IMG/VR virus record: IMGVR_UViG_3300010334_000319
Coordinates: 1-21,999 of that record
Direction: 5' to 3' (one strand)
Source: a virus
Length of the DNA stretch: 21,999 nt
Shown: piece after piece, positions 1,364-16,233 of the stretch
Layout of the letters: the number at the start of each line of letters is the position of its first letter
How positions within the stretch are numbered: position 1 is the first letter of the stretch
Translations under genes and position numbers: made by a program
Notes under the pieces: generated by a model
Told to the model about the DNA's origin: nothing
Seen by the model: the letters and a program-made list of their open reading frames with translations, nothing else
Database searches by the model: none

Positions 1364-1638
1364 TGCGACCACTCAGTAATTGTGTATTAATCCGTCAAGA
1401 TGACGAAAAATTATCAAGCACCATCATTATTCCTACCACAACTAAATTATTTAGTGGTATAGTTGTCGCTATTGGTGAAGGCAAGAGATTACCCAAGGGT
1501 GGTATCGAGCCAATGAATGTGGAAGTTGGGCAACACGTTTTGTTCGGCGAGTTCAGCGGGCAGAAGGTAACTTTAGACGGCGAGGATTTGCTCGTTATGA
1601 GAGAACCAGACATTATTGGGATATTAGATGGCAGTTGA
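1363..1638 (+). CDS. GroES-like co-chaperonin (Cpn10 family)
   Basis: At 91 residues it is close to the length of bacterial GroES (97). It begins MRPLSNCVLIRQDD, matching the RPL..RV.V start of the Cpn10 fold, and has a shortened mobile loop (residues 15-28) carrying a hydrophobic III-P segment (21-24) where GroES has its GroEL-binding IVL. It then shows SGIVVAIGEG (31-40), VEVGQHVLFGEFSG (53-66), and DGEDLLVMREPDIIGIL (72-88), matching the GroES pattern ending in D..DI.AI. It would cap host GroEL to help fold a phage protein; coat is the likely client, because P22 coat folding variants are known to need GroEL/ES. It overlaps the portal start by 11 bases. Its sequence is divergent from host GroES, so it looks like a phage lineage gene rather than a recent host capture. 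Confidence 0.85.
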   Translation: MRPLSNCVLIRQDDEKLSSTIIIPTTTKLFSGIVVAIGEGKRLPKGGIEPMNVEVGQHVLFGEFSGQKVTLDGEDLLVMREPDIIGILDGS

Positions 1639-3895
1639 TCCTTCCTCAATGGAAATTGTTGGCCGAGTAGCCAACGGTGCGAAATCAGAAGATGATCCAC
1701 GCGATGTCTTAGCGACGATGCGTCATCGCTTTCAGCAGGCAATGTCTGCTTATTCCGAATCAAGAGAAGATGAACTAGATGACCTACGCTTTTATGCTGG
1801 GTCGCCTGATAATGGGTGGCAATGGCCTGCCGATGTACTAGCAACTAGAGGATCAGTCCAAGGACAAACAATTAACGCTAGACCTTGTCTGACCATCAAC
1901 AAGTTGCCACAGCACGTCAAGCAAATTACCAACGAACAACGACAAAACCGACCCTCTGGCAAGGTAATCCCTGCCGATGATAAGGGCGATGTCGAAGTAG
2001 CAGAAATTTTTGAAGGTATGGTACGCCATATCGAGTATATGTCAGACGCCGATGTCGTCTATGACACCGCTTGTGAGAACCAAGTTGTTTACGGCGAAGG
2101 TTACTTCCGTATTTTGACGGAATACTGCAACGATGAGTCGTTTAACCAAGATTTAAAACTGTGCCGTATTCGTAACGCGTTTAGCGTCTACATGGATCCG
2201 TTGATTCAAGACCCAGCCGGTTCTGATGCAAGATGGTGCTTCATTACTGAAGATATGGAGAAGTCTGAGTTTGAAAGACTATTTCCTAACGCTTCTCCTA
2301 TTACTTCTATTATGTCGCAAGGTGTTGGCGATGACTCTCTAAGCCAATGGATTAACGAAAACACCATTCGTATCGTAGAATATTTCTACTACGTGCATGA
2401 ACCAAAGAAATTAAACCTTTACCCTGGCAATCAATCGTTTTTTGATGGTAGCCGTGAAGATAAACAGATGAAAGAGATGGGCTTAAAGCCTGTTAAATCT
2501 CGAATTGTTGATGTTAAAGTTGTCAAATGGATGAAAACCAATGGGTTTGAAATCCTTGAAGAACAAGATTGGGCAGGTAAATATATTCCTGTTATTCGCG
2601 TAGTTGGTAATGAATTTGAAGTCGATGGTCGCATTTATGTGTCTGGTTTAGTCAGAAATGCTAAAGATGCCCAAAGAATGTATAACTATTGGGTCAGTCA
2701 AGAAGCTGAGATGTTGGCTTTGGCACCCAAAGCACCATTTATTGGGTACGGTGGTCAATTTGAAGGCTATGAAAACCAATGGAAAACGGCTAATACGACC
2801 AACTGGCCGTATTTAGAAGTAAATCCTGATGTAACTGATGGTATGGGCGCAACATTACCACTACCACAACGCGCAGCACCTCCACTCGCACAAACTGGCT
2901 TGATTCAAGCCAAAATGGGTGCTAGTGACGATATTAAGTCAACCACAGGGCAATATGACTCAAGCCTTGGTGCAACAAGTAATGAGCGTTCTGGTAAAGC
3001 CATCCTTGCAAGAGAAAAACAAGGGGATGTCGGTACTTACCACTATGGTGACAATCTCACAAAAGCGATTCGATTTGCTACACGTCAATTAATTGACCTT
3101 ATCCCTAAGATTTACGACACCGAACGGATTGCTAGGATTATTGGTGTTGATGGTGAAGTGTCAATGGCAAAGATTAACCCAGAACAAGCCGAGCCGGTCA
3201 AAAAGATTGTTGACCAACAAGGCGTTGTGATTGAAAAAATCTACAACCCTACCGTTGGTACTTACGATGTGGTCGCTACGACTGGTGCAGGCTACATGAC
3301 TAAGCGTCAAGAAGCAATGGATGCGATGGCACAGATTCTGCAAGGCAATCCTCAGTTATGGACTGTCGCAGGCGATTTGTTCGTAAAGAATATGGATTGG
3401 CCAGGCGCACAAGAGATGGCTAAACGCCTACAAAAGACAATTGATCCGAAGTTGCTATCCGATTCTGATGAAGACCCTGCATTGCAAGCTGCGCAGCAAC
3501 AAATGCAAGGCATGGCACAAGAAATGGAACAGATGCACACCATGCTTCAGAATGTTAGCAAGTCAATGGAGATGCAAGAGATTGAGCGTAAGAACTACGA
3601 AGCGCAGATTAAGATGTTCGATGCTGAAACCAAACGAATTAGCGCCGTTCAAGCATCCATGACGCCCGATCAGATTCACGACATTGTGATGGGTACGATT
3701 CACGCTGCGATTGATACAGGCGATTTAATCTCTGGGTCACAACAAGATATGAGAATGAATATGCAAGAAGATGAACAACAAGGTCAGATGTCGCAAGCAC
3801 AGCCAATGCAACCAATGCAACCACCGATGCAAGGTGAGATGCCCCAAGAACAACCGATGATGCCACAGCAAGGGATGCCAAATGAAAGCATGTGA
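1628..3895 (+). CDS. Portal protein, P22 gp1-like
   Basis: At 755 residues it compares with 725 for P22 portal. The dodecameric portal forms the vertex through which DNA enters and leaves, and docks terminase and then the tail adaptor. The N-terminal region has RFQQAMSAYSESREDELDDL and the RPCLTINKLPQHVKQITNEQ motif typical of P22-type portals, followed by NRPSGKVIPAD. The C-terminal part (about 618-677) is a Gln/Met-rich helix consistent with the long barrel of this portal class. The last 40 residues are low-complexity Gln-Pro-Met repeats. The start at 1628 lies within the end of the GroES-like gene with only a weak ribosome site, so translation is probably coupled; an ATG at 1649 is an alternative. 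The 3' end overlaps the next gene by 14 bases. Confidence 0.93.
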   Translation: MAVDPSSMEIVGRVANGAKSEDDPRDVLATMRHRFQQAMSAYSESREDELDDLRFYAGSPDNGWQWPADVLATRGSVQGQTINARPCLTINKLPQHVKQITNEQRQNRPSGKVIPADDKGDVEVAEIFEGMVRHIEYMSDADVVYDTACENQVVYGEGYFRILTEYCNDESFNQDLKLCRIRNAFSVYMDPLIQDPAGSDARWCFITEDMEKSEFERLFPNASPITSIMSQGVGDDSLSQWINENTIRIVEYFYYVHEPKKLNLYPGNQSFFDGSREDKQMKEMGLKPVKSRIVDVKVVKWMKTNGFEILEEQDWAGKYIPVIRVVGNEFEVDGRIYVSGLVRNAKDAQRMYNYWVSQEAEMLALAPKAPFIGYGGQFEGYENQWKTANTTNWPYLEVNPDVTDGMGATLPLPQRAAPPLAQTGLIQAKMGASDDIKSTTGQYDSSLGATSNERSGKAILAREKQGDVGTYHYGDNLTKAIRFATRQLIDLIPKIYDTERIARIIGVDGEVSMAKINPEQAEPVKKIVDQQGVVIEKIYNPTVGTYDVVATTGAGYMTKRQEAMDAMAQILQGNPQLWTVAGDLFVKNMDWPGAQEMAKRLQKTIDPKLLSDSDEDPALQAAQQQMQGMAQEMEQMHTMLQNVSKSMEMQEIERKNYEAQIKMFDAETKRISAVQASMTPDQIHDIVMGTIHAAIDTGDLISGSQQDMRMNMQEDEQQGQMSQAQPMQPMQPPMQGEMPQEQPMMPQQGMPNESM

Positions 3896-4244
3896 TTTTG
3901 TAGGAATGTTATTTTTGGCTAGAGATGTGGTGCATAGTGTGCATCTGAATACCCGCAGTTATGCCAAACATAAGGCGTTGCAGAAGTTTTATGAAAATAT
4001 TATTGATGTGGCTGACGATTTTGCCGAAACCTATCAAGGCAGGTATGGATTAATTGGGCCAATTAGCCTAATGTCCGCAAAGAAAACAACCAATGTCATT
4101 GAGTTTTTAGAAGGACAACTTGCTGAAATAGAAGAAGCAAGATATGATATCTGTGATAAGACAGACACACCGCTTCAGCAGTTAATCGACAATATTGTTG
4201 AATTATATTTAAGAACGCTGTATAAATTACGCTTTTTAGCATAA
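3882..4244 (+). CDS. Mini Dps/ferritin-like four-helix protein
   Basis: This encodes 120 residues, mostly helical. I see His18, His30, Asp45 and Glu49 with spacings of 12, 15 and 4, the same spacing as the ferroxidase residues of Dps (E. coli H51, H63, D78, E82). The local sequence HLNTRSYAKHKAL resembles the Dps HWN..G..F...H.ml segment. After Glu49 come a glycine turn (QGRYGLIGP), a third helix (TTNVIEFLEGQLAEIEEARY) and a fourth (PLQQLIDNIVELYLRTLYKL), so the four-helix order is kept. Asp67 of E. coli Dps is replaced by Gln34, and the N-terminal DNA-binding tail and the short BC helix are absent. Related small proteins occur in other phages (possibly DUF5856; from memory). Iron oxidation or DNA protection is an inference; it could instead be a structural protein on a ferritin-like fold. 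Confidence 0.6.
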   Translation: MKACDFVGMLFLARDVVHSVHLNTRSYAKHKALQKFYENIIDVADDFAETYQGRYGLIGPISLMSAKKTTNVIEFLEGQLAEIEEARYDICDKTDTPLQQLIDNIVELYLRTLYKLRFLA

Positions 4245-4253
4245 GGAACAAAC

Positions 4254-4559
4254 ATGGAATTTCTTAGACCTCTAGCCGACACTGAATACGCTGCCGGTTC
4301 AGCATCTACAAGCGGTACGGCTGCGACAGTAGCCACTTGGAAGCCTGGACCGCAAGGCGTATTAGTATGGGGAACACAGGATATGTATGTGGCTGTCGGC
4401 GTTGGGGTAACTGCTACCTCCGCAAGCACACCAGTACCTGCTTACACTCCGATTCCATTTTTTGCACCGCAAACAGGATCAGGTGAGCCTTGGCGTGTGA
4501 GTGTTCTGCAAATCTCTACTGCCGGTGTAGCTTACGCTAAACCGATTAATATTCGATGA
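4254..4559 (+). CDS. 101-residue virion-associated protein (unknown)
   Basis: The start at 4254 has a clear AAGGA at 4243-4247, and the stop overlaps the following start (ATGA). The sequence is rich in Ala, Thr, Val and Gly and predicted beta-rich: it begins MEFLRPLADTEYAAGSAS, continues through VLVWGTQDMYVAVGVGV and ends in a short strand with AYAKPINIR. It has the look of a small beta-sandwich decoration or fibre-base protein, but I do not recognise a family. Its coupling to the lectin-like fibre gene suggests a shared job in that structure. Confidence 0.75.
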   Translation: MEFLRPLADTEYAAGSASTSGTAATVATWKPGPQGVLVWGTQDMYVAVGVGVTATSASTPVPAYTPIPFFAPQTGSGEPWRVSVLQISTAGVAYAKPINIR

Positions 4560-5824
4560 GTTGGGGCATTGGCGACCGTGTTGGTGTAGCCGTTGGAATC
4601 GGCAACATCAGTAGTTTTTTGTCTAAATCTATCCAATCACGCGGCCCACAACCATCTTTAACCCTCGACTTTGCGGGAACAGGCACACTTGATTCTCGTA
4701 TTACCTTCACTCGAAGCACAACAGGCACTTATTACAACTCTAGTGGTGTGCTATCTACCGCAGCAATTAATGAAGCCCGATTTGACTATAATCCATCCAC
4801 CTTAGCACCACTAGGTTTGTTGATTGAACAATCAAGTACAAATTTAGTGACTTATAGTCAAGATTTTAGTAATGTAATTTGGGTTAAAGATGGGGCTACA
4901 ATTACTAGTGCAGCTAATACTGCACCTGATGGAACGACAACAGGTAATTTAATTACAAATACAACTGCTAATGCTCAACATAGGATATATTGGGTATTTG
5001 GTGGTGGTGGCTTTGTTACTGGTGTTAGATCAATTTATGCAAAAGCCAATACAGCTAATTTTATTGGTTTAAGTGGCTCTGGTACAGATGGAGCTGTATT
5101 TAATTTATCATCGGGGGCGATAGTAAATACTTACTCAGGCGCAACCGCAACTATTACACCTGTTGGTAATGGGTGGTATAGATGCACAATTTATCCAGCA
5201 GCAGGATATTTATATTTAATAGTAACAATTGGCGAAACTGCTGCACAAGCAATACCAAATACAAGTTATGTTGGCACAGAAAAGTCTGCGTACATTTGGG
5301 GCGCACAACTAGAAGCCCTCACATTCCCTACATCCTATATCCCCACAACAATTGCTCAAGTAACTCGGGCTGCGGATAATGCTTCGATGACGGGTACAAA
5401 TTTCTCTAGTTGGTATAACGCTACACAGGGGACTTATTTTTTTAGTGGAAATTCTCAACAAACTTCAGGTGTTGTCCAAAGTTTTATACAAGACCAAAAC
5501 ATTTTTCTAGGGACTGCTGGACAAGGCACTTGTAAATTATATAATCCTACTGGCGCAGGATTAGTTTCAGGGTACATAATCAATGCAAGTAGCGCTTTAA
5601 TTGCATATAGCTATCAAATCCCAAGTTTATCTTCTTTGTTTACTGTTAATGGACAAGCAACGCAATCTTTTACAAATCCTAATTTGTCAGCTTCTACTTT
5701 AGCCATAGGAACTGGACTTTTTGGTTCTGCATATGGTTTCCGTGGAATTAATGGATACATTAAGAAAATAGTTTACTACCCAACTGCGTTAACTTCCCCT
5801 CAACTAATAGCCCTCACGACATAA
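4556..5824 (+). CDS. Lectin-like phage fibre/spike protein
   Basis: This 422-residue protein is probably part of an adsorption structure that binds surface carbohydrate. Residues 36-104 carry the widespread phage module LDFAG....DSRITFTRSTT.TYYNSSGVL, ending in GLLIEQSSTNLVTYSQDF. A jelly-roll-like module follows (about 105-270), closing with WGAQLEALTFPTSYIPTT and TRAADNASMTG, a typical carbohydrate-binding beta-sandwich ending. The C-terminal third (about 280-422) resembles a laminin-G/concanavalin domain and ends GYIKKIVYYPTALTSPQLIA. The first 35 residues (MSWGIGDRVGVAVGIGNISS onward) are a distinct leader, possibly the virion attachment. The start overlaps the preceding stop. The family type is clear; the sugar target is unknown. 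Confidence 0.8.
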   Translation: MSWGIGDRVGVAVGIGNISSFLSKSIQSRGPQPSLTLDFAGTGTLDSRITFTRSTTGTYYNSSGVLSTAAINEARFDYNPSTLAPLGLLIEQSSTNLVTYSQDFSNVIWVKDGATITSAANTAPDGTTTGNLITNTTANAQHRIYWVFGGGGFVTGVRSIYAKANTANFIGLSGSGTDGAVFNLSSGAIVNTYSGATATITPVGNGWYRCTIYPAAGYLYLIVTIGETAAQAIPNTSYVGTEKSAYIWGAQLEALTFPTSYIPTTIAQVTRAADNASMTGTNFSSWYNATQGTYFFSGNSQQTSGVVQSFIQDQNIFLGTAGQGTCKLYNPTGAGLVSGYIINASSALIAYSYQIPSLSSLFTVNGQATQSFTNPNLSASTLAIGTGLFGSAYGFRGINGYIKKIVYYPTALTSPQLIALTT

Positions 5825-5826
5825 TT

Positions 5827-6156
5827 ATGCAAGACATCTACTTAGCCTTTACAGACGAAGCCGAATCTTTACCGATTCTTTATACCATCGTGCCTACTGA
5901 GTATGTGCTAGGTAAAACTGGCAAACCGACTAAAACAGTTAAAACCGAGTCGTATATGACTCCAAATTATCAAAATATTAGTGTAATTGGTACTGTTTAT
6001 CAGCGACCACCAGAGCCAATTCCTGAAGATTATGTTCCAATTCCTTATCCACCACCTAATTATGGTGTAAATATTCGTTTGTTAGATGATGAGAATATTG
6101 AACCATTAAAACCTTATCTTGTTACTCCAACTAATCCAATCAGAGTGTGGGCATAA
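5827..6156 (+). CDS. Small fibre-associated protein (unknown)
   Basis: This encodes 109 residues with a Pro-rich centre (RPPEPIPEDYVPIPYPPP) and a C-terminal segment GVNIRLLDDENIEPLKPYLV ending TPTNPIRVWA. I recall that N.R....E.P..L.PY.VTP..P.R.WA ending from small proteins lying next to tail-fibre genes in many phages; their function is unsettled, with fibre assembly or attachment as candidates. There is no good ribosome site before the ATG, so translation probably depends on the fibre gene ending three bases upstream. It sits exactly between two receptor-binding proteins. Confidence 0.75.
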   Translation: MQDIYLAFTDEAESLPILYTIVPTEYVLGKTGKPTKTVKTESYMTPNYQNISVIGTVYQRPPEPIPEDYVPIPYPPPNYGVNIRLLDDENIEPLKPYLVTPTNPIRVWA

Positions 6157-6158
6157 TT

Positions 6159-8048
6159 ATGGCTGTTAATCTTTCTCCTGTGGGCGGTGTTGCTGCGCAA
6201 TTTTTAGACAATAGTGGCAACGTATTAACCGGCGGTAAGCTTTATACTTATTTAGCTGGCACAACTACGCCAGCCGTCACTTACACTAGCAACTCAGGTT
6301 TTGTTGCTAACTCTAACCCAATTATTCTTAACGCTGCGGGACGCGTCGCTGATAGTGGTGAAATATGGTTAACCGATGGTATTAGCTATAAATTTGTTTT
6401 AAAAGATAGCAACGATGTTCAAATTGCTACTTGGGATAACATTATTGGTATTAACTCCAATTTTATTAATTACTCACTCCAAGAACAAACATTTACTGCA
6501 ACGCAAGGGCAAACAGTCTTTACTTTGACGGGCGGTAAACAGTACACTCCTGCGACCAATAATTTAGCTATTTATGTCAATGGATCAAAACAAGTTGCAG
6601 GCACAAACTACCTTGAAACTTCGACAACAGTATTTACATTCCTAACAGGCTTAAACGTAGGCGATGTAGTAGACGCAATTACCGCAATTTCTGTTGCTAC
6701 CAACGTCATTAACTCTGTTAACGTGTCTTACAACCAAGGCGGTACAGGCGCAGTAACAACCAACGTGCAAGCTAAACTTCGTGAATCTGTAAGCGTAAAA
6801 GACTTTGGTGCAATAGGTGATGGAACTACAAATGACACAACTGCCATACAAAATGCAATTAATTATGCTGGAACAGTAAATGGAGCAACAGTTTATTTTC
6901 CTACAGGAACTTACAAAGTAACATCAACATTAACAATGCGTGATTATGTTACTTTAAAAGGTGATTCTGGATTGTATCCAGGCTCATCAAAAATAGTATC
7001 AACTGCATCTAATATTTTTTATGGTATTGGTAATGGTTCTGGAACAGGTTATTCCATATTTAATTTATTAAACATGTCAATACAAGGTTCAAGAAATGGA
7101 ACTCAAAATTTTTTAAGTAGAACAGGAACTACAAGTTGGGCATTTAGTTTAGTTGAAAGTTGTTATTTAGTTAATATTCCATTATTTGATTTATTGTTAA
7201 CAGGTGTTCATTTTTCAAACAATAATTTTCAAAATCAAGTAAAAATTACATTAAGAGGTGCAGATTGTAATTTTGATTCTAATTATTTTGGATATGACAA
7301 TGCAGATACAACTGCGCTAACAACCGATCCTTTTGTTGATGTAGTTTCTAGTGGTGCATTTGTTTTTACAGGTAATTACATATCATCTTATTCACCATCT
7401 AGAGGTGTTGCACCAATACCACTACAGATTGAAGGTGCTTTAGATTGTTTCTTATCTCAAAATAGAATTGATGGTGGAACAACTCGATCACTTTCTTTTG
7501 TAAGTGGTTCTCAAAGAATTATAATGATGTCAAATCGTATTACTTCTATAACTTCTGGAATACCAATTTATTTTTCAAATGTTACGCAAATCACATTTAG
7601 CAACAATATTATTGAGGGTTTAACAGCAAGTCAAGCATTTGCAACTTGTAACTCTACTGAAGTAGATATTATATTAAGGGATAACCAAACTAATAGTAGA
7701 ACAGATTCAACTACGCATGATTTTGTTGATAATTCAGCAGGAACAAGTTTTATTACTTTAACATCACCTGATTTAACATCTTTAAACATTACATCTAATC
7801 TTAATTTTAGTTCAGCTTACTTTGGTAGAGTTATAACCAATACAGGTGGAACAGGCGTTCAATATATTTATATTCAATCATCTAACTTTTTACCAACTAA
7901 TACTTTTTATTTTAAAAATACAGGTGCAAGATTAATTGTTTATGATTCAACTACTTCAGCAGCAATTTATGATTCATTAACATCTGGCTATACAACAGGA
8001 AAAGTAGTTTGTTATGTTTCTGGCACAGTAGTTGCTAGTTCAGTTTAA
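6159..8048 (+). CDS. Tailspike 1: P22-like head-binding domain plus beta-helix
   Basis: The ATG at 6159 (MAVNLSPVGG) is chosen over an in-frame GTG at 6147, which would overlap the previous gene; it yields 629 residues. Residues 10-97 (VLTGGKLYTYLAGTTTPAVT, then PIILNAAGRVADSGEIW) resemble the P22 tailspike head-binding domain, including its PLIINAAGKI strand. Residues 105-180 (QTFTATQGQTVFTLTGG) form a stem-type beta module. From residue 211, SVKDFGAIGDGTTNDTTAIQ marks a Pectate_lyase_3-type right-handed beta-helix running almost to the end. Such trimers bind or cut host O-antigen or capsule. The beta-helix part is visibly more AT-rich than the N-terminal part, suggesting exchange of the receptor-binding half. 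Catalytic residues cannot be assigned by eye. Confidence 0.87.
   Translation: MAVNLSPVGGVAAQFLDNSGNVLTGGKLYTYLAGTTTPAVTYTSNSGFVANSNPIILNAAGRVADSGEIWLTDGISYKFVLKDSNDVQIATWDNIIGINSNFINYSLQEQTFTATQGQTVFTLTGGKQYTPATNNLAIYVNGSKQVAGTNYLETSTTVFTFLTGLNVGDVVDAITAISVATNVINSVNVSYNQGGTGAVTTNVQAKLRESVSVKDFGAIGDGTTNDTTAIQNAINYAGTVNGATVYFPTGTYKVTSTLTMRDYVTLKGDSGLYPGSSKIVSTASNIFYGIGNGSGTGYSIFNLLNMSIQGSRNGTQNFLSRTGTTSWAFSLVESCYLVNIPLFDLLLTGVHFSNNNFQNQVKITLRGADCNFDSNYFGYDNADTTALTTDPFVDVVSSGAFVFTGNYISSYSPSRGVAPIPLQIEGALDCFLSQNRIDGGTTRSLSFVSGSQRIIMMSNRITSITSGIPIYFSNVTQITFSNNIIEGLTASQAFATCNSTEVDIILRDNQTNSRTDSTTHDFVDNSAGTSFITLTSPDLTSLNITSNLNFSSAYFGRVITNTGGTGVQYIYIQSSNFLPTNTFYFKNTGARLIVYDSTTSAAIYDSLTSGYTTGKVVCYVSGTVVASSV
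6788..6837 (+). repeat. 50-bp diverged direct repeat, copy A (tailspike 1)
   Basis: These 50 bases match 8153-8202 in the second tailspike gene at 44 of 50 positions by hand alignment, with no gaps. They encode the SVKDFGA.GDGTT.D junction at the entrance to the beta-helix. The shared block lies where DNA composition changes in tailspike 1, so it is a plausible site for homologous exchange of spike bodies. Confidence 0.7.
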
Positions 8049-8057
8049 GGATAAAAA

Positions 8058-9467
8058 ATGACAACACTAATACCTAAATTTGATTTAATGAACGGTGGCT
8101 CTACACCAACAGGAGCAGTTAATCGACCTATTAATGAGAAGTTGGCAGAAGTTGTAAGCGTTAAAGATTTTGGTGCGGTAGGTGATGGAACAACAGATGA
8201 CAGTGTAGCTTTTGCTAATGCCGTAGCTACTGGAAAATCTATTTTTGTACCTAAAGGAACTTATAAGTGTGGATTTAGTTTAGCTACAGGTCAACGTATT
8301 TATGGAGAAGGTGCTAGGGGAGAAACCACACTAACACCAACAGGTAATAATGCTACTGTTATCATTATTTCTGCAACATCTGTTGCTAAACAACATTGCA
8401 CGATTGAAAATTTAGGTATTTTAAATCCCAATAGCTTTACAGGCTGTACAGGAATTTGGTTTCAAGGAACAAATGTAAGCACAATTAACGACAATCATTT
8501 TGTTGAAAATGTTTATGTTAGTGGAGTTCAACTTGGTGTTTATGTTACTGGCAGATTAATTTTATCTACATTTATCAATGTAGAAATTACTACTTGTTCA
8601 ACTGCATTGTATGTAAATACCGACGCAACTACCGCCGCTTTTAACGCTAATTGTTTTATAACTTGTAGATTTGTAAATTCTATTCAAAATGGATTTTATT
8701 TTACTGGTTGGAATTTATCTAACACATTTCTAAATTGCGATTTTGAAAGTAATAATACTGCAAATGCTAATAGTTATGGCGGTGTATATATAACTGGAAA
8801 AACAGAAGAATTATCTTTTTTAGGTTGTTATTGGGAAAGTAATGGTTCGTCTGTTGCCATTGATACAGGAACTATTGGCAACAATAGTTATGGTTTGTAT
8901 ATTACAGGAACTGATGCGTACAATGTATTAATTCAAAATTGTTACATGGTTACATCGGGAATTATGATTCATATGGATGTTAGTTCTGGTGTAATTGGAG
9001 GGCTTGTTACCGGATGCCGTTTTGCGCCGTTAACTAATGGTTGGGACATATATCAAAATTCACAATTAGGTGGGGCATATCAACCTTTTGTTATTGATGG
9101 AAACAATTACTTCAGTGGAAAAATGGAAATTACCGAAACTGGCGCGGCTGAAACACCAGCGTGCATACGTCAGTTAACAGGTTTGCGTTATATTACAGGA
9201 ACTCCGTCTGGTGTAAATAATATTGATTTGCGTAGAACACAGAATGTATTTTGTCAAACTTCAGGAACAATTACATTTAATAATACCAATACTCTTTATT
9301 TTGTTGCTGGGGAAAAATTTGCTGTAGTTAATAATGGTTCAGGTTCTACTGTAATAGACGCAACCATTATGGCGAGTGGATCATCCGTAACTTTAACTTC
9401 AGGTCAAACCGCTACTTTTATCGTTGCTAATTCTATTGGTAGTAAGAAATTTATTAGACTTAGCTAA
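8058..9467 (+). CDS. Tailspike 2: beta-helix without head-binding domain
   Basis: This 469-residue protein has a good ribosome site (AAGGA, eight or so bases before the ATG). A leader of only about 33 residues (MTTLIPKFDLMNGGSTPTGA and following) precedes SVKDFGAVGDGTTDDSVAF, the Pectate_lyase_3 signature. A long right-handed beta-helix follows, with many regularly spaced Gly, Asn and aromatic turns (GIWFQGTN, GVYVTGRL, GVYITGKT, GLYITGTD). The end (from about residue 370) changes character: QNVFCQTSGTITFNNTNT and later GSSVTLTSGQTATFIVANS look like a C-terminal trimer or capping domain. No head-binding domain is present, so it must attach through its short leader, perhaps to tailspike 1 as in branched spike systems. 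This is inference from architecture. Confidence 0.85.
   Translation: MTTLIPKFDLMNGGSTPTGAVNRPINEKLAEVVSVKDFGAVGDGTTDDSVAFANAVATGKSIFVPKGTYKCGFSLATGQRIYGEGARGETTLTPTGNNATVIIISATSVAKQHCTIENLGILNPNSFTGCTGIWFQGTNVSTINDNHFVENVYVSGVQLGVYVTGRLILSTFINVEITTCSTALYVNTDATTAAFNANCFITCRFVNSIQNGFYFTGWNLSNTFLNCDFESNNTANANSYGGVYITGKTEELSFLGCYWESNGSSVAIDTGTIGNNSYGLYITGTDAYNVLIQNCYMVTSGIMIHMDVSSGVIGGLVTGCRFAPLTNGWDIYQNSQLGGAYQPFVIDGNNYFSGKMEITETGAAETPACIRQLTGLRYITGTPSGVNNIDLRRTQNVFCQTSGTITFNNTNTLYFVAGEKFAVVNNGSGSTVIDATIMASGSSVTLTSGQTATFIVANSIGSKKFIRLS
8153..8202 (+). repeat. 50-bp diverged direct repeat, copy B (tailspike 2)
   Basis: Second copy of the beta-helix entry block, matching 6788-6837 at 44 of 50 positions. 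The copies are 1365 bases apart. Recombination between them would delete the tailspike 1 beta-helix and fuse its head-binding domain to the tailspike 2 body in frame, because the spacing and reading frame agree. Confidence 0.7.
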
Positions 9468-15768: not shown

Positions 15769-16233
15769 ATGAATATAACCATGACATTCGGCAAAGGGTT
15801 GTTGCCTAATGTACCCTTACGTCAAAGGGTAGAAAACTTGCAACATGAGATTTCTAAGCTACCACAATATGAACCTAAGACTACCCATACGTTCCATGCA
15901 GGGATGTATTGCCGTGAAGTATGGCGACCAGCAGGTGTTTTAGTGGTTGGTAAAGTTCACAAAAAAGAACATTTTTATTTAATCGTATCAGGTACAGTAG
16001 CAATTACTACAGATGATGGGGTACAATTAGTTACTGGCCCACATTTGTTGTGTAGTACGCCTGGTACAAAACGTGCTGTGTATGCAGAAACAGACGCTTT
16101 ATGTATGACTTTTCATGTTGTAGATGCTAAAACAATTGAAGATGCTGAAGCTGAATTAGTTGAAACAGATGCAAACGATATGTACACTATTGGTAATACT
16201 ATTAAAGATCAACAGATAGAGGTAACACTATGA
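15769..16233 (+). CDS. Cupin-like small protein in tail gene cluster
   Basis: The product has 154 residues. GKVHKKEHFYLIVSGTVAIT (61-80) resembles cupin motif 1, with His64, Glu67 and His68 as candidate metal ligands and the conserved Gly after the strand. PHLLCSTPGTKRAVYAETDA (91-110) followed by CMTFHVVDA (His116) fits cupin motif 2 (P-G...R/H...). The N-terminal 40 residues (LRQRVENLQHEISK) are helical, and the tail (120-154) is acidic. Such small cupins appear in tailed-phage structural regions without a known reaction; a beta-barrel structural role without catalysis is equally possible. The ATG at 15769 follows the previous stop by one base; an alternative ATG is at 15781. The 3' end overlaps the next gene (ATGA). 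Confidence 0.72.
   Translation: MNITMTFGKGLLPNVPLRQRVENLQHEISKLPQYEPKTTHTFHAGMYCREVWRPAGVLVVGKVHKKEHFYLIVSGTVAITTDDGVQLVTGPHLLCSTPGTKRAVYAETDALCMTFHVVDAKTIEDAEAELVETDANDMYTIGNTIKDQQIEVTL

Follow-up and report, generated by a model that had tools for sequence, protein, structure and literature searches.

A phage protein encoded in overlap with the portal gene is a predicted Dps-like ferroxidase

Introduction

Dps is a bacterial protein that defuses iron and peroxide. In a 21,999-nt stretch of viral DNA (IMG/VR record IMGVR_UViG_3300010334_000319, positions 1 to 21,999; hereafter “the window”), a small gene adjoining the portal gene had been predicted, from the spacing of a few residues, to encode a Dps/ferritin-type protein. 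Here we ask whether this protein is related to Dps, whether it keeps the residues of the Dps metal site, and what such a protein might do for a phage.

Results and Discussion

A conserved gene overlapping the portal gene

The gene in question (3882-4244, + strand, ATG start, 120 aa) is a real and conserved open reading frame. In comparisons with close relatives (75 gap-free pairs, dS being saturated in 54), dN/dS was 0.025-0.093 for the pairs with dS <1.5, and the gene is thus under strong purifying selection. The residues first noticed in its product, H18, H30, D45, and E49 at 12-15-4 spacing, are present as claimed; among the 77 window ORFs with 50 aa or more, this is the single one with the pattern, which arises in 0.02% of shuffled versions of the protein.

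Upstream lies the gene for the portal protein, its operon partner (1628-3895, + strand; phrog_156, E 1.2e-120), the end of which overlaps the start of the small gene by 14 nt (3882-3895, + strand). This overlap formed part of the original prediction and is kept in related viruses: of the 80 closest viral loci, 79 gave a portal match, and in nearly all of these the portal overlaps the homologous gene, usually by 4 nt. A scan of positions 3500-4700 returned no + strand promoter and no terminator, and Rfam and tRNA scans were empty. The gene overlap and the lack of a + strand promoter between the two genes support co-expression with the portal, in line with the earlier suggestion that the protein is made with virion proteins, and translational coupling through the 14-nt overlap is likely. 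Further downstream, two genes encode pectate-lyase-like proteins of tail-spike type (6147-8045 and 8058-9464).

Other genes of the window were noted in passing. A phage GroES co-chaperonin (Cpn10, E 1.8e-19) is encoded at 1363-1635, directly 5' of the portal gene, and lies near the homologous small gene in many relatives. Directly 3' of the small gene, at 4254-4556, is the gene for a 101-aa protein without a Pfam or PHROG match, homologues of which occur near the gene in 26 of the 80 close loci. A 154-aa protein with weak cupin or cyclic-nucleotide-binding likeness (15769-16230) is flanked by membrane-protein and DNA-ejection genes.

Membership in a widespread phage family

The protein matches the whole of the DUF5856 profile (PF19174; E 1.1e-21, 78.2 bits against a gathering cut-off of 34.6, profile positions 1-94 of 94) as well as PHROG 858 (E 1e-24). 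The Pfam scan gave no match to the Dps family itself (PF00210), a trace of which was seen in just one scanned DUF5856 member (7t3, E 0.034, below cut-off). A match to PF16527 (CpxA) was below cut-off and was set aside.

A minimal Dps that rides in the virion or protects DNA late in infection was originally called unusual; the protein itself is not rare. DUF5856 was matched in 1,420 of 50,697 phage records (~2.8%), with at least 80% of the query covered in 1,385. Carriers include T4 and other Tevenvirinae (as rI.-1), Ackermannviridae, RB43-type phages, phiR1-37, Caulobacter phages, and huge phages. By comparison, 84,980 genomes of bacteria and archaea, scanned with one motif, yielded just 11 loci, all in metagenome bins and several with phage head genes; DUF5856 is therefore essentially a phage family. 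Its gene neighbors in other phages are mixed and include RusA resolvase, HNH or ParB-like genes, tail-fiber genes, endolysins, and the T4 rI operon, so that virion association cannot be assumed for every member. The family, present in roughly 3% of sequenced phages including T4, has no agreed function, and a literature search by name found no paper on DUF5856.

The protein resembles the other members of DUF5856/PHROG 858, including T4 rI.-1, in its full-length match, its predicted fold, and its invariant residues. It is ~30% identical to T4 rI.-1, from which it differs in having no N-terminal extension and in its coupling to a P22-type portal gene.

Fold and homology to Dps

The AlphaFold2 model of the protein (mean pLDDT 95.4) is a bundle of four helices (residues 3-21, 27-55, 72-90, and 96-118), in agreement with the four-helix order that had been proposed. 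When it was compared with solved structures by VIA-align, the top nine rows were all Dps, led by MsDps2 (Z 14.1, rmsd 2.3 over 118 residues) and including E. coli Dps (Z 13.0, 2.5 over 117); bacterioferritins and YciF-type proteins scored slightly lower, and the best neighbors had 117-119 residues aligned. Unrelated helical bundles may also attain a Z of ~13, so that this ranking is indecisive by itself; it becomes decisive together with the profile match. A Foldseek search of the model against the PDB gave no hit with E <0.001 (best 0.06), and the fold assignment is therefore based on the VIA-align ranking together with profile homology. Weak Foldseek E-values are usual for helical bundles.

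The profile evidence is consistent. A profile of 66 DUF5856 members found HP-NAP (E 2.8e-4) and Deinococcus Dps2 (E 1.1e-3) among solved chains in one and the same register, and hhalign against a profile of eight Dps proteins aligned residues 2-119 with a probability of 96% (E 1.2e-9). A model of a T4-like rI.-1 (pLDDT 92.4) has the same fold, and its nearest neighbor is again MsDps2 (Z 13.7). Taken together, profiles and models show that the protein is homologous to Dps and predict, at high confidence, a four-helix bundle of ferritin fold; the Dps/ferritin-type fold of the original prediction is borne out.

Among other phage proteins, gp34 of Streptomyces phage Karimac (L236:2956-3354) is a 133-aa Dps (PF00210) in which the B-C region is shortened; it also matches DUF5856 weakly (E 0.084), and it is possible that it represents a Dps/DUF5856 intermediate.

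A corrected set of metal ligands

The original prediction had equated H18, H30, D45, and E49 with the ferroxidase residues H51, H63, D78, and E82 of E. coli Dps. Three sequence alignments confirm His30 (codon 3969-3971, + strand), Asp45 (4014-4016, + strand), and Glu49 (4026-4028, + strand) as the equivalents of His63, Asp78, and Glu82, but place His21 (3942-3944, + strand), and not His18 (3933-3935, + strand), on His51, the His of the HW motif. Compared with Dps, the A-B loop has lost three residues, which brings His21 to this position; the identical 12-15-4 spacing obtained by counting from His18 is thus a coincidence. His18 is a near-invariant extra residue, one helical turn before His21. 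It is kept in 49 of 51 non-redundant members and is the one residue of the set that varies (8 of the 35 divergent members have R or Q in its place), and it was ruled out as the His51 equivalent.

The conservation of the corrected set is strict. H21, H30, D45, and E49 are constant in 206/206 DUF5856 sequences, a set in which the search pattern had fixed H30 in 91 and also H21 in 80. The 15 homologues found by BLAST are free of this bias (median identity 30%), and their sole invariant columns are H18, H21, H30, D45, E49, and L116. The position of Dps Asp67 (E. coli numbering) is occupied by Gln34, as had been pointed out; the most common residue there is Gly, which 29 of the 51 non-redundant members have.

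In a helical-wheel projection, the ligands of helix B (three residues) are offset by 122 degrees from the core face of the helix, against 126 in Dps; this single offset is the sole independent evidence from the wheel, as the angles among the three follow from the identical 15-4 spacing. Since Asp45 and Glu49, as in Dps, point away from the core of their own bundle, the metal site is probably shared between subunits. Neither of the outcomes named beforehand as refuting the prediction was observed: the residues are conserved in the family, and they map, indirectly, onto the inter-subunit site of Dps.

Parts of Dps that are missing

The protein shares with Dps (PF00210) the four-helix fold, the equivalents of His51, His63, Asp78, and Glu82, and a ligand face directed outward from the core of the bundle, and it differs in several parts outside this set. 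In Dps, a BC helix lies between helices B and C, at the dimer interface. In the model, residues 56-71 have no helix, so that the B-C loop (~16 residues) contains no BC helix. Asp67 and the terminal tails are also missing, whereas His18 is additional. With both Asp67 and the interface BC helix gone, the dimer or dodecameric cage of Dps may take a different form here or may not form at all. Because a PF00210 match, Asp67, and the BC helix are all lacking, the protein is to be filed under DUF5856; if the ferroxidase assignment holds, it works like Dps. We call it a mini-Dps.

Relatives in purified virions

Members of the family were recognized here in two published virion proteomes, neither of which describes the proteins as DUF5856. 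In the Kuttervirus Sajous1, gp217, named “ferritin” on the basis of Phyre2, gave 10 spectra in CsCl-purified virions, and its authors caution that low spectral counts do not rule out debris (PMC10892097). We matched gp217 to DUF5856; it thus belongs to the same family as the mini-Dps, but its gene lies in the tail-completion operon of a 157-kb myovirus and not after the portal. The second case concerns two T4-like Klebsiella phages, ValerieMcCarty03 and ValerieMcCarty04, in whose CsCl-purified virions gp108 and gp100, respectively, gave 26 and 27 PSMs, above the authors' virion cut-off of 15, under the name “starvation-inducible transcriptional regulator” (PMC13119998). Both match DUF5856. A further member, g280 of phiR1-37, is called a “phage structural protein” in the note of its database record.

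Proposed function and alternatives

We consider it probable, with room for doubt, that the gene encodes a phage mini-Dps, a predicted ferroxidase that is co-expressed with the portal and plausibly associated with the virion. Two subunits would form a dimer with two metal sites, each made up of His21 and His30 from one subunit and Asp45 and Glu49 from its partner, in which His18 may serve as an extra or second-shell ligand replacing the lost Asp67. Such a site would bind Fe(II) and oxidize it with peroxide or oxygen, which would remove the reactants by which phage DNA would be broken late in infection and during packaging. As it is translated with the portal, has no DNA-binding tail, and has relatives in purified virions, the mini-Dps probably acts at or in the particle, and not as a free DNA-coating protein.

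The most serious alternative, which we regard as unlikely but worth keeping in mind, is a ferritin-fold virion assembly or decoration protein in which a metal (Zn, Fe, or Mn) purely stabilizes an interface, with no ferroxidase activity. Virion association of relatives and portal coupling would fit such a protein, as would the missing BC helix, the missing Asp67, and the presence of Dps domains in prohead proteases (below). However, the four ligands are strictly identical at 15-30% overall identity, as in a catalytic site, and the mixed gene contexts of the family are a poor fit to a dedicated structural part.

The T4 homologue has suggested a quite different role, that of a lysis-timing accessory acting via the holin/antiholin system, which appears improbable for the gene in the window. 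T4-type members do lie in the rI operon and some others near endolysins, and over-expressed rI.-1 slightly delays the collapse of lysis inhibition; the effect, as given in a review, is small and concerns over-expression only (PMC6832632). Moreover, phage RaK2 carries the gene without T, RI, or RIII (PMC3622015), and the gene of the window is coupled to the portal rather than to lysis genes.

A DNA-binding or transcription-regulating protein is what the name of PHROG 858, “starvation-inducible transcriptional regulator,” would imply. We took this name to be an annotation transferred from Dps. The helical core of the model runs from residue 3 to residue 118 and leaves no basic tail, in line with the earlier remark that the DNA-binding tail is missing, and such a role is similarly improbable. 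Least likely of all is that particles carry iron as bait for host iron-uptake receptors (the “Ferrojan horse”), as put forward by the Sajous1 authors for gp217, since they saw no dependence on the iron-uptake pathway in the host tested (PMC10892097), the mini-Dps gene belongs to a head/portal operon, and a tail-tip location is only hypothetical.

The DUF5856 family and the ferritin likeness of one member had been described before. New here are the corrected ligand register, invariant throughout the family, the connection with T4 rI.-1, the portal coupling, the cross-matching of independent virion proteomes to DUF5856, and the Dps-prohead protease fusions described below. That a Dps has been reduced in this way with its ligand set intact points to an activity that can be tested directly in T4, where the gene has been known only as an accessory to lysis inhibition. 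If virions carry the mini-Dps, phages would bring along an enzyme of their own against oxidative damage to DNA, which would bear on phage persistence in sunlit or oxidizing water.

Dps domains fused to prohead proteases

A structure search against viral models revealed Dps-like domains inside proteins named prohead protease, and a DNA-motif scan of viral contigs yielded at least 120 Dps ORFs, of which at least 11 exceed 350 aa. Single ORFs combining, in one frame, Dps (PF00210) with the prohead protease Peptidase_S78 were found at L340:2617-4869, where the gene order is terminase, portal, fusion, and capsid gene; at L261:306-2567, where it is terminase, portal, and fusion; and at L332:3034-4656, where a capsid gene is next. 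Two of these fusions also carry a weak HAD/polynucleotide-kinase-like match. The four Dps ligands are kept in every fusion that was aligned.

A 405-aa protein with a C-terminal Dps domain (L243:812-2026, - strand) is encoded after portal and head-morphogenesis genes. Its N-terminal part looks protease-like by eye, and PHROG matches it to a portal/protease profile. A portal-Dps fusion, as the PHROG label would have it, was ruled out, given a separate portal upstream (phrog_776) and the resemblance of the N-terminal part to a capsid protease.

With this protein and the Peptidase_S78 fusions, it is clear that head-assembly operons have received Dps-type domains more than once. The fusions, which stem from uncultured phages, resemble the mini-Dps in placing a Dps-type domain in a head-assembly operon adjoining the portal; they differ in being true Dps (PF00210), in one chain with Peptidase_S78, and not DUF5856. 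A literature search found no paper on ferritin-like prohead proteases. Judging from the fusions, a Dps-type domain may be naturally suited to capsids. More tentatively, and as a possibility to which we give less than even credence, packaging a ferroxidase of Dps type, inside the virion or on it, may be a recurring phage strategy, reached at least twice (the DUF5856 mini-Dps and the Dps-prohead protease fusions), that would shield packaged or freshly ejected DNA from iron and peroxide.

Phage Dps domains were also seen in another setting, N-terminal in long proteins with DUF5824 (PF19141; L238:664-2892, L303:5977-8154, L326:676-2232, and L315:2140-3465).
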